Assembly: GCA_947449315.1 (NCBI GenBank)
Contig: CANFRC010000004.1
Location: forward strand, 62,001-126,000
Origin: Bacteroidota bacterium
GTDB taxonomy: Bacteria; Bacteroidota; Bacteroidia; 2-12-FULL-35-15
DNA: 64,000 bases
Direction of reading: 5' to 3'
Under the pieces are notes generated by a model, which was not told the origin of the DNA, did no database searches, and was given only the letters and a program-made list of their open reading frames with translations. This document shows positions 22,565 through 26,705 of this stretch, one piece after another (the stretch's first letter is position 1; the number at the start of each line of letters is the position of its first letter). The position numbers and the translations under genes were made by a program.

Positions 22565-24010
22565 CTATTTCAGTTTTAAACAAATATTTTTGGGTTCCGT
22601 AAAGAAGTTCAGAGCTTCAAAACCCCCTTCACGTCCAACACCAGAACTTTTAACACCCCCGAATGGAGTTCTCAGATCGCGTAACAACCAGCAGTTGATC
22701 CAAACAATTCCTGCATGAATAGTATTGGCCATGCGATGTGCGCGCGTTAAATTTTCTGTCCATAGAATCGATGCCAAACCATATTGCGTTGCATTCGCAT
22801 AAAGCAATGCTTCTTCTTCCGTATCAAAAGGCATAATGGTTACAACAGGCCCAAAGATCTCTTCCATGTTTGTTCTGCAGTTATATGTTAATCCTTCAAT
22901 AACGGTTGGAGCAATATAATACCCTTCGGAAAATTCACCTTCAAGTTTCACTTGATAACCTCCGCATAACACGTTTCCACCTTCTTGTTTTGCCAATTCA
23001 ACAAACGACAAAACTTTTTCCATGTGTGGTTTTGAAACCACCGCACCCAATCTACTATCTTCGGCGGCCGGATTTCCTACTTTCATTTTTTGAACTCGAG
23101 AAACAAATTCGGTTTTAAATTTTTCATAGATAGAACGTTCCACTAAAATACGTGAGCCGCATAGGCAGATCTGACCTTGGTTTGCGAAGGAAGAGTTGAG
23201 TGTTGTTTTGATCATTTTTTCAAAATCACAGTCAGCAAAAATGATGTTTGGATTTTTTCCACCCAATTCAAGTGATAATTTTTTAAACATAGGAGCCGCT
23301 ACTCTTGCGATCTCAGCGCCGGTCTTTGTGCCTCCGGTAAAGGAGATCAATGGTATGTTAGGATGTGCTGTGATTGCTGAACCTACTTTGTGTCCATAAC
23401 CATGTACAATATTTAACACCCCTTTCGGTAAACCCGCTTCAATACATAATTCAGAAAGCAGATAAGCTGTCATAGGAGTGATCTCTGAAGGTTTTGCTAC
23501 CACACAGTTTCCTGTTGCAATTGCTGGTGCTATTTTCCAGGTGAATAAGTACAAAGGTAAATTCCATGGGGAGATGCAGCCCGCAACGCCAACCGGATTT
23601 TTCACAGTATAATTGATTGCAGTATCTTCCATCGCATGACTTTCTGAAGCAAAATGTAAAATAGCTGTTGCATAAAAATGAAAATTACTTGCCGCACGAG
23701 GAATGTCTACCAGTTTAGCCAATGAAACAGGTTTCCCATTATCAATAGATTCAGCAATAGCTAACCGGTCTAAATTTTTTTCTATCAACTCAGAGATCTT
23801 TAGAAGTATGCGTGAACGTTCATCTTTTGGGGTGTTACTCCAGGAAGGGAAAGCAGCTAATGCAGCTTTGGTTGCCAACTCAACATCCATCGCATCTGAA
23901 TCAGGAATCAGAGAATATACTTTTCCTGTTGCAGGATTGTAGTTGTCGATGTATTGTTTGCTTGTCGGTTCAATTAATTCCCCGTTGATATAGTTTTTTA
24001 TTTTTTGCAT
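22565..24010 (-). CDS. Aldehyde dehydrogenase, 2-aminomuconate-semialdehyde dehydrogenase-like
   Basis: A 481-residue NAD(P)-dependent aldehyde dehydrogenase. The general base is E248 (LELGGKNPN) and the nucleophile C282 (NQGQICLCGSR); the cofactor motifs SPWNLPLYLFTWKIAPA and SFTGGTKTG are intact, as is the FGPVVT segment. From memory the sequence is closest to the ALDH8/AmnC group, which oxidises 2-aminomuconate semialdehyde in tryptophan breakdown, or 2-hydroxymuconate semialdehyde. The RidA-like gene at 11901 would act next in that pathway. Start: an open frame begins 20 codons upstream at 24070, but homology begins at MQKIKNYING, so ATG 24010 is chosen. Upstream on the same strand is a terminator-like hairpin, so expression may depend on leader read-through. 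Confidence 0.92.
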   Translation of the reverse strand: MQKIKNYINGELIEPTSKQYIDNYNPATGKVYSLIPDSDAMDVELATKAALAAFPSWSNTPKDERSRILLKISELIEKNLDRLAIAESIDNGKPVSLAKLVDIPRAASNFHFYATAILHFASESHAMEDTAINYTVKNPVGVAGCISPWNLPLYLFTWKIAPAIATGNCVVAKPSEITPMTAYLLSELCIEAGLPKGVLNIVHGYGHKVGSAITAHPNIPLISFTGGTKTGAEIARVAAPMFKKLSLELGGKNPNIIFADCDFEKMIKTTLNSSFANQGQICLCGSRILVERSIYEKFKTEFVSRVQKMKVGNPAAEDSRLGAVVSKPHMEKVLSFVELAKQEGGNVLCGGYQVKLEGEFSEGYYIAPTVIEGLTYNCRTNMEEIFGPVVTIMPFDTEEEALLYANATQYGLASILWTENLTRAHRMANTIHAGIVWINCWLLRDLRTPFGGVKSSGVGREGGFEALNFFTEPKNICLKLK

Positions 24011-24104
24011 AGGATGGAATGCTGCTGATAGTTTTACTTGTATTATTGACCGAAGATGAAATGCCTCCAATTGTTCGATCTGCTAATTGTAAAAATACTA
24101 AATA

Positions 24105-24141
24105 AATATAAATAAAAAGAGACTCTTTGAGGAGCCTCTTT
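24105..24141 (-). terminator. Orphan minus-strand terminator hairpin upstream of the ALDH gene
   Basis: On the minus strand AAAGAGGCTC and GAGTCTCTTT pair (10 bp, one U-G) across a 6-base loop, then TTATTTATATT. It lies about 95 bases before the ALDH ATG and after a TATTTTTG box at 24240-24247. Because the neighbouring gene on the right is divergent, it would end either an ALDH leader or a separate RNA of about 120 bases. The rest of the 349-base gap 24011-24359 holds the kinase operator and promoter. Confidence 0.6.
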
Positions 24142-24268
24142 CTTCATGGTTGTTTGTGCGAAATCTTTGGATGGGAATGTAGATTTCAGAACAATGAGCA
24201 TTCATATTCCAAAACAAACTAAAAACTAAATAACTTCACCAAAAATAAGGAGCAAAATCAAGTGCGGC

Positions 24269-24305
24269 TGTTAAACACGTGTTAACACCTGTTAAATAAT
24301 GTTAA
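24269..24305 (+). promoter_or_regulatory. Four phased TGTTAA direct repeats, probable response-regulator operator
   Basis: TGTTAA occurs four times, starting at 24269, 24280, 24290 and 24300, that is every 10-11 bases or one helical turn. OmpR/PhoB-type regulators bind such direct repeats as head-to-tail dimers. The block ends 27 bases before the -7 box TATTTTTG (24333-24340) of the histidine kinase gene, which lacks a -33 TTG, and lies 21 bases from a minus-strand TATTTTTG (24240-24247). It is therefore well placed to activate one or both transcripts. Confidence 0.65.
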
Positions 24306-24359
24306 GGCCTTAAACGTTCTGTTGTAATCGCCTATTTTTGTTATAGTTTCAAACGCACG

Positions 24360-25973
24360 ATGAATAAAAGCAGTATTCGCACAATCACCGTAATTGCAAG
24401 CCTCGCATTGATGGGCTTGATAGGTATTCAGGTATATTGGATTGGCAACGCTATTGATTTAGGCAAAGAACGCTTTGAACAAAACGTGAACGAAGCATTA
24501 ACGAATGTTGTTTCCCGAATGGAAAAACTTCAGGCTGCTGCCAAGATCACTAAAAAGATAAAATTCAGAAAGCAAGGAATCTTATGGTACAGTGCTGATG
24601 GATCCCCAAAAAGTAGTTCCAAATTCATTAAAGATTCTATCACTGAAAAACATCCATTTGCTTTGCAAAACAACAAAGTGAATGTAAAAATTGTGGAAGA
24701 TTATGCTGCCGATTCTAATGGGATCATCGTTAAAAAAACGAGACAGAAAGATTATTCAAGTGATACAGCTTCCAGCAATTTCGATGCACGCGCCAAAAGT
24801 GATGGCCCTACTTTTTTTCAGCAGTTTGGTGGAATTGAGACGAATCAAAACTGGAACTCGCATAAAAGTGAAATGGTTAACGACATTTTTGACGAGCTGG
24901 TAAGTATCAATGTATACAATAACTATAATCATAAGATCGACACTTTGTTGTTGGATTCTATTCTGCATGTTGAACTGTTAGAAAAGGGAATCACTGCTAA
25001 ATATGTTTTTAGTGTTGTTGCCGAAAAAAAGGCTGCAGCTGATTCATCAGTGGGATCTGAAAATCCAGCAGCGATAGACAATCCTCCTTATCAAGTAAAT
25101 ATTTCTCCTGATAATATTTTTATCAAACCGCAATATTTATCTGTTTTCTTTCCGAATCAAAACAGGTATTTGCTTAGTTCCATGTGGGGATTATTGCTTG
25201 TTTCTTTTTTGTTTATGATGACGTTGATCTTTTCTTTTTACTATTCCATCTCCACCATTTTTAAGCAGAAAAAGTTGTCGGAAATAAAAAACGATTTTAT
25301 CAGTAACATGACGCATGAGTTTAAAACGCCAATATCTACAATCTCTTTAGCTGTTGAAGTATTGAATGATAAGTCGGTTGAGAAATCTCAGGAACGGGTA
25401 AGTAACTATGTAAAAATGATCGGGGATGAAAACAAACGTTTGAGTTTACTCGTTGAAAACATTTTGCAAACAGCAATTTTAGATAAAGGACAATTTAAGC
25501 TGAAGGTTCAAAACATCGACATCCATAATTTAATTGAACAAACAATTCAGAATATTAAACTGCAGGTTGAAAACAAAGAAGGGGAAATTGAAACAGAATT
25601 GAATGCGACTGAGCCTATGATTATGGCTGATCGGGTGCATGTAACAAATATCATCTTCAATTTGATTGACAATGCACTGAAGTATTCAAAAGAAAAGCCG
25701 CTCATAAAGATCACTACTAGCAACGGTAATGAAGGAATATTTATTGCTGTAGAGGACAATGGAATTGGTATCAATAAAGAAAATCAGAAGCGGATATTTG
25801 ATACGATGTATCGCGTTCCTACCGGGAACATTCATAATGTAAAAGGGTTTGGTTTAGGATTAAGTTATGTGAAAGCAGTAGTTGAAAAACATGGCGGTTC
25901 CATCATTGTGAATAGTGAAATAGGGAAAGGAAGCACGTTCACACTTTTTTTACCATATAAAACAGTCACTTAA
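24360..25973 (+). CDS. Membrane sensor histidine kinase
   Basis: A 537-residue two-component sensor. Membrane segment 1 is at about 9-28 (TVIASLALMGLIGIQVYWIG). A periplasmic sensor region of about 245 residues follows, without a recognisable domain, then membrane segment 2 at about 275-297 (MWGLLLVSFLFMMTLIFSFYY). The HisKA phospho-acceptor is H319 (NMTHEFKTPIST). The ATPase domain shows the N box (NLIDNALKYS), G1 (VEDNGIGI) and G2 (GFGLGLSYVKAVVEKHGG). It is the usual Bacteroidota sensor type paired with an OmpR-family regulator. The regulator gene follows 36 bases downstream in the same operon. Four TGTTAA repeats precede the promoter, suggesting autoregulation. The signal is unknown. Confidence 0.95.
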   Translation: MNKSSIRTITVIASLALMGLIGIQVYWIGNAIDLGKERFEQNVNEALTNVVSRMEKLQAAAKITKKIKFRKQGILWYSADGSPKSSSKFIKDSITEKHPFALQNNKVNVKIVEDYAADSNGIIVKKTRQKDYSSDTASSNFDARAKSDGPTFFQQFGGIETNQNWNSHKSEMVNDIFDELVSINVYNNYNHKIDTLLLDSILHVELLEKGITAKYVFSVVAEKKAAADSSVGSENPAAIDNPPYQVNISPDNIFIKPQYLSVFFPNQNRYLLSSMWGLLLVSFLFMMTLIFSFYYSISTIFKQKKLSEIKNDFISNMTHEFKTPISTISLAVEVLNDKSVEKSQERVSNYVKMIGDENKRLSLLVENILQTAILDKGQFKLKVQNIDIHNLIEQTIQNIKLQVENKEGEIETELNATEPMIMADRVHVTNIIFNLIDNALKYSKEKPLIKITTSNGNEGIFIAVEDNGIGINKENQKRIFDTMYRVPTGNIHNVKGFGLGLSYVKAVVEKHGGSIIVNSEIGKGSTFTLFLPYKTVT

Positions 25974-26009: not shown

Positions 26010-26705
26010 ATGGAAAATACAAAAGTTTTATTGGTAGAAGACGATGCTAACCTAGGAAATCTTTTAAAAGAATATTTGGAAGCAAAAGGGTATTCTACTG
26101 TTCTGGCTGTAAATGGGAAACAGGGGTACGATTTTTTTTCCAAAGATAAATTTGGAATATGTATTCTGGATGTGATGATGCCCATCAAGGATGGTTATAC
26201 ATTGGCAAAAGAGATTAGAGCAATTGATACAAATATTCCAATTGTGTTTCTAACTGCAAAGTCAATGAAAGAAGATGCTATTGAAGGTTTTTCGGTTGGG
26301 GCTGATGACTACATCACAAAACCTTTCAGTATGGAAGAGTTGTTGTTGCGCATCAAAGCTATTTTGAGAAGAACAGCAGGTAACGCATCTAAAAATTCTG
26401 ATATCACTTCTTTTACTATTGGGGAATATAAATTTGATTATAAGCACCAGATTCTTGATCTGAAAGGTGTTCAGCATAAGCTGACAACTAAGGAAGCAGA
26501 ATTATTAAAATTACTTTGTTTACATGCAAACGAGGTATTGGACAGAAACTTTGCATTGAAATCCATTTGGCAGGATGATAACTATTTTAACGGAAGAAGT
26601 ATGGATGTATACATTGCTAAACTCCGTAAATATTTAAAGGATGATACAAATGTCGAATTGATCAATGTGCATGGCAAGGGTTTCAAGCTGTTATCGGGTA
26701 TATAA
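26010..26705 (+). CDS. OmpR/PhoB-family response regulator
   Basis: A 231-residue DNA-binding response regulator, partner of the kinase encoded 36 bases upstream. The receiver domain (about 4-120) has the acidic pair D11/D12 (VEDDAN), phospho-acceptor D54 (CILDVMMPIKDG) and conserved TAK (FLTAKSMKEDA) and KPF (YITKPFSMEELL) motifs. The winged-helix domain (about 135-230) includes LTTKEAELLKLLCLHANEVL and RSMDVYIAKLRKYLK. OmpR-type regulators bind direct repeats spaced by one turn, as found upstream of the kinase gene. Followed by a strong terminator, so the operon contains just these two genes. Confidence 0.96.
   Translation: MENTKVLLVEDDANLGNLLKEYLEAKGYSTVLAVNGKQGYDFFSKDKFGICILDVMMPIKDGYTLAKEIRAIDTNIPIVFLTAKSMKEDAIEGFSVGADDYITKPFSMEELLLRIKAILRRTAGNASKNSDITSFTIGEYKFDYKHQILDLKGVQHKLTTKEAELLKLLCLHANEVLDRNFALKSIWQDDNYFNGRSMDVYIAKLRKYLKDDTNVELINVHGKGFKLLSGI

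Follow-up and report, generated by a model that had tools for sequence, protein, structure and literature searches.

A phased TGTTAA array as the probable operator of an RprX/RprY-like operon in Bacteroidota, with Cpx-like genes near related sites

Four in-phase TGTTAA half-sites lie between the promoter of a two-component operon and a divergent promoter in a 64,000-nucleotide stretch of DNA from a Bacteroidota bacterium (the whole stretch analysed, termed the window). The array is probably the operator of the RprY-like regulator encoded by the operon, which would activate rprXY and the divergent unit; a two-site form would act at htrA/degP, and RprXY would represent a Cpx-like envelope-stress system. 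The analysis established the sequence, conservation, geometry, and gene context of the array, as well as its contrast with a paralogous system. The features of the element and the operon were as follows.

24269..24274, plus strand: half-site 1, TGTTAA, exact match, 11 bp to the next; the 11-10-10 array is kept in relatives
24280..24285, plus strand: half-site 2, TGTTAA, exact match, 10 bp to the next
24290..24295, plus strand: half-site 3, TGTTAA, exact match, 10 bp to the next
24300..24305, plus strand: half-site 4, TGTTAA, exact match, 27 nt to the plus-strand -7 box
24333..24340, plus strand: -7 box TATTTTTG of the kinase-regulator operon, 27 nt past half-site 4
24240..24247, minus strand: divergent -7 box TATTTTTG, 21 nt from half-site 1
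24360..25973, plus strand: RprX-like sensor histidine kinase, 537 aa, HisKA and HATPase_c, membrane
26010..26705, plus strand: RprY-like response regulator of the OmpR/PhoB family (NCBIfam RprY), 231 aa, proposed array binder

The operon is RprX/RprY-like. The regulator contained Response_reg (2.5e-28) and Trans_reg_C (1.8e-16) domains, which fits the OmpR/PhoB family, and its gene adjoined an RprX-type kinase gene, as the kinase and regulator genes do in other Bacteroidetes. RprY of Porphyromonas and Bacteroides was by far its best NCBIfam match (NF051850, 353.4 bits; next best PhoB, 178), although the score fell slightly below the curated cut-off of 370; the protein is therefore named RprY-like rather than a strict RprY member. 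It is not a CpxR ortholog (127 bits with the CpxR model, against a cut-off of 341). Many Bacteroidota, gut and oral species among them, have the RprXY pair. Gel shifts showed the distant ortholog in P. gingivalis to bind its own promoter (PMC3646045), and here the array was conserved at the regulator's own operon. On the other hand, P. gingivalis lacks RprX, and the RprY targets in the literature comprise oxidative-stress and sodium-pump genes as well as genes for cytoplasmic chaperones.

An earlier note on this DNA had placed TGTTAA at 24269, 24280, 24290, and 24300 with periods of 11, 10, and 10, and all four were confirmed on the plus strand. The -7 boxes that it had described, one preceded by the repeats (24333-24340) and one facing them on the minus strand (24247-24240), were both present, and both lacked a -33 TTG. 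Pairs of the form TGTTAA-N4/5-TGTTAA occurred three times in the window, all at 24269-24305, compared with 0.06 in dinucleotide shuffles. Lone TGTTAA was not enriched (75 found, 71.7 expected); the unusual property is the phasing of the hexamer and not its count. In the whole genome, the N4/N5 pair was found 17 times, versus six for a reversed control pattern, and three or more repeats were present only at the rprX array and at one pst locus. The shuffles, together with the conservation of the array in relatives, bear out the view that four in-phase repeats did not arise by chance.

Comparison with the regions upstream of orthologous kinases, as proposed in the earlier note, revealed that the repeats were kept across the phylum, with their phase and their distance to the -7 box preserved. 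The exact 11-10-10 array was found upstream of the kinase in most of the genus, with differing spacer bases. Among de-duplicated loci (24 from the genus and 72 from wider Bacteroidota, including Algoriphagus, Roseivirga, Dyadobacter, Marinifilum, and Anaerophaga), the sense strand upstream of rprX carried two GTTAA motifs spaced by exactly 10 bp in 16/24 and 46/72, respectively; the controls gave 0.08-0.09 (shuffles), 0-1 (spacings of 5-9 and 12-19), and 0-2 (reverse strand). The gap between the last site and TAnnTTTG was 27 nt in 12 of the 16 genus loci, and in the 46 wider loci it was 27 nt in 19 and 28-29 nt in a further ten, of which 7 had 28 nt. The 11-10-10 arrangement was the commonest geometry in the genus (13/24 loci) and the best of 216 geometries on 66 distant loci, with 10-10-10 a close second. 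The array was absent, having been lost, in a sub-clade that carries an ABC-F-type ATPase gene directly upstream of the kinase gene. Conservation at the orthologous operons thus gives good support to a putative autoregulatory site for the encoded OmpR-type regulator, as the note had proposed, whereas the link that it drew to an aldehyde dehydrogenase (ALDH) gene was not upheld (see below). In ten loci (L100, L101, L106, L107, L108, L116, L122, L135, L138, and L141), exactly 4 nt separated TAnnTTTG from the rprX start codon downstream of it, and the rprX mRNA may therefore be leaderless in distant Bacteroidota.

Phosphorylated RprY probably occupies all four half-sites in head-to-tail fashion, along a single face of the helix, and would then recruit RNA polymerase to the promoters on either side, neither of which has a -33 TTG. 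The right-hand output would be the rprXY operon itself (autoregulation), and the left-hand output would be the divergent unit. A two-site version, with GTTAA at 10 bp approximately 28 nt before the -7 element, would place htrA/degP under RprY, and further conserved copies lie next to genes with periplasmic folding, redox, and wall roles. In Flavobacterium psychrophilum, the -7 box is located at -12 to -5 (PMC9723704); if this also applies here, the expected transcription starts are close to 24345 on the plus strand and 24235 on the minus strand. The array would then lie upstream of both, ending about 40 nt short of the plus start, with its nearest site some 34 nt from the minus start. These positions, together with the lack of a -33 element, suit an activator that touches polymerase on both sides. 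Autoregulation has a precedent in the binding of P. gingivalis RprY to its own promoter (PMC3646045). RprY binding, the sign of control, and the nature of the stress signal are putative here. RprY could instead bind the array and mainly repress the operon, as a repressor role was proposed for the P. gingivalis protein, for which groES, clpB, and dnaK, but not htrA, were the tested targets (PMC3646045); this is improbable, however, because the array is situated upstream of both -7 boxes, no site overlaps a box or a start, and the -33 TTG is absent. Furthermore, when P. gingivalis was depleted of sodium, the rprY transcript dropped along with the amount of RprY.

Activation by RprY would extend beyond its own operon. 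The genome scan for TGTTAA-N4-TGTTAA that the note had envisaged as a way to define the regulon yielded sites at rprX and at envelope genes, and these clustered in relatives. In the genome of the window, 10-bp pairs were located at rprX, htrA, and genes for an M23 peptidase, a PpiC-type peptidyl-prolyl isomerase (PPIase), MoxR/truA, gldF, and DsbD, and one more was intragenic; N4 sites across ten relatives clustered at the same PPIase, M23, MoxR, gldF, and DsbD genes. As read from sequence, these neighbors are a Cpx-like gene set. Among 33 sampled on-phase TGTTAA pairs, 31 were intergenic and 24 belonged to conserved clusters, compared with 9/30 and none, respectively, for off-phase N6/N7 pairs (12-13 bp). 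Many of the kept sites were antisense in orientation to the envelope gene. The 10-bp GTTAA pair at htrA/degP was present in 28/30 same-genus loci, even where the rprX array was lost, and a contig end cuts one of the two loci without it; the distance from the pair to an A..TTTG element was 27-29 nt in 25 of the 28. In genome G020, the htrA pair was kept and no close RprY ortholog was among the matches from this fragmented assembly. Outside the genus, a class-wide sample contained the pair in just 8/26 loci, which rules out the htrA box as a class-wide feature and indicates that the regulon changes beyond the genus. Six htrA upstream regions without a sense pair (L322-L326, L330) contained an antisense TTAAC-N5-TTAAG-like pair at 10 bp.

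The gene set resembles that of CpxAR in Escherichia coli, for which degP, ppiA, and dsbA were the first known targets and the box is GTAAA-N5-6-GTAAA (PMC9600279). Both systems have direct-repeat 5-mers about 10 bp apart (here GTTAA-N5-GTTAA, an analogous box and not GTAAA), and in both the box occurs at the system's own operon, at degP/htrA, and at PPIase and Dsb-type genes; autoregulation, which is proposed for RprXY, would be a further shared trait. These similarities suggest that the little-studied RprXY pair may run an envelope-stress response resembling Cpx. RprY autoregulation was already known in P. gingivalis, but neither a defined DNA box nor a regulon for RprY was found in the literature searched. 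The phylum-wide candidate RprY box, its Cpx-like neighbors in this group, and the apparent reduction of the divergent unit to a short RNA in some lineages were likewise not found there and seem to be new. With a box so defined (GTTAA at 10 bp, roughly 27 nt from TAnnTTTG, and with htrA, PPIase, and DsbD as neighbors), the regulon could be predicted from sequence, and the phylum would gain a candidate envelope-stress response.

The divergent side of the array contained three further features.

24114..24143, minus strand: intrinsic terminator at the end of the divergent unit, separating the array from ALDH
24090..24097, minus strand: TATTTTTA, a -7-like box between the terminator and ALDH, with a similar TTAGTAnTTTTA in L161, L176, and L167; outside the element
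24110..24235, minus strand: predicted short divergent RNA of about 126 nt, remnant of a lost secreted gene (reading-frame end plus 3' UTR)

The divergent -7 box is part of the element: in 35 loci with the array, a minus-strand TAnnTTTG stood 20-23 nt away from the position of the first site, versus 0-1 loci at other positions. The proposal that the array is shared by a divergent ALDH leader was not supported, because the box is fixed to the array and not to ALDH, the terminator (24143-24114) intervenes, and a separate ALDH-proximal -7-like box exists. The distance from the divergent box to ALDH ranged from 177 to over 1200 nt among loci, and ALDH was rejected as the divergent target. The -7-like box at 24097-24090 lies beyond the terminator, which argues that ALDH has its own promoter and that the divergent -7 box probably does not serve it. 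In several relatives, the divergent promoter reads a gene whose secreted product has a T9SS sorting tail; in some distant loci, unrelated-looking secreted genes or a pgi-like gene occupied this position. The secreted gene was absent from the window, G001, G016, G024, G029, and G033, in which a strong terminator followed 110-165 nt after the box. Only weak T9SS-tail matches were detected elsewhere in the genome, and a relocated copy of the lost gene was thus rejected. The module preceding the terminator in the window matched the 3' UTR of intact loci of the same clade, and its 5' arm matched the final codons of the reading frame that was lost. A kinase tree suggests at least four losses of the secreted gene, or two insertions.

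The helix of this 3' module was paired in 92.9% of cells and was found independently by RNAalifold; its covariation score was reached by 9/500 shuffles, and the window's own copy contained two mismatches. Strong matches to the module occurred only at the rprX locus, as a single copy in 11 genomes, although the RNA model gives only rough E-values and was itself trained on most of the strongly matching sequences. Based on this distribution, a dispersed repeat was ruled out. No Rfam match was obtained for 23900-24500. In E. coli, the exported-protein gene cpxP is divergent to the cpx operon, and an exported-protein gene is similarly placed beside rprXY; the protein here differs in its T9SS sorting tail, which was its sole match, and no CpxP family match was obtained. 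The small RNA CpxQ, from the cpxP 3' UTR, is described as the most conserved part of cpxP (PMC9438474), and the divergent mRNA here also ends in a conserved hairpin and terminator. In contrast to CpxQ, the RNA is a prediction, its helix carries two mismatches in the lineage of the window, and this lineage lacks the coding part. The resemblance to cpxP/CpxQ is one of layout, and any shared function of the divergent RNA would be conjectural. A tentative extension, of which we are doubtful, is that RprXY corresponds to Cpx in Bacteroidota and has two divergent outputs, namely an exported protein with a T9SS tail and a small RNA derived from the 3' UTR. Several lineages, including that of the window, would have independently deleted the coding part and kept the promoter, 3' hairpin, and terminator, leaving a stand-alone small RNA under RprY control.

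A paralogous kinase-regulator pair (L305-L308, L341-L355) harbored its own TGTTA[AT] array, in steps of 11 bp and typically with four sites. This array was present in 14/14 readable loci, close upstream of the -7 box and with a gap similar to that of rprX. The paralogous regulator is about 48% identical, and it was absent from the regulator matches of the window's own genome. TGTTAA-N5 pairs or triplets (11 bp) also occurred at pst genes and in front of genes resembling phoB. The paralogous pair thus shares the half-site but has its own 11-bp array, so that spacing probably separates the regulators: the half-site would be common to them, and the spacing would give specificity. This contrast between paralogous systems offers a clean case of possible insulation by site spacing. 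The WalR box is TGTWAH-N5-TGTWAH, and the PhoP boxes of Bacillus subtilis are TTAACA repeats, the reverse complement of TGTTAA; both have an 11-bp spacing, compared with 10 bp here except for the first step, and their regulons are different.

The near-identical half-site of PhoB and of the paralogous regulator is the main weakness of a purely sequence-based assignment of the array to RprY. A different OmpR-family regulator, either PhoB or the paralogous system, might bind the array and cross-regulate rprXY, given the same half-sites at pst, phoB-like, and paralogous loci and the 11-bp first step of the rprX array. This is quite improbable, because the PhoB and paralogous sites are spaced by 11 bp whereas rprX and htrA are fixed at 10 bp, the array is present in a genome without the paralogous pair among its regulator matches, and rprX alone accompanies the array consistently throughout the phylum. 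Origin by chance or mutation, as a slipped tandem repeat or an AT-rich coincidence, is negligible, for although the lone hexamer is as common as expected, the phasing, the fixed gap, and the conservation with variable spacers across distant genera all oppose it, and off-phase control sites were not conserved. Besides the sites near rprX, three TTAACA repeats at 11 bp were observed upstream of a pst permease gene in L003 (G000:C3:108595-108622) and L181, and this triplet is a likely Pho box of the group. A conserved TGTTAACTAAATGTTAA pair, also at 11 bp, was located upstream of a gene whose sequence resembles that of DNA gyrase B (L313, L314).
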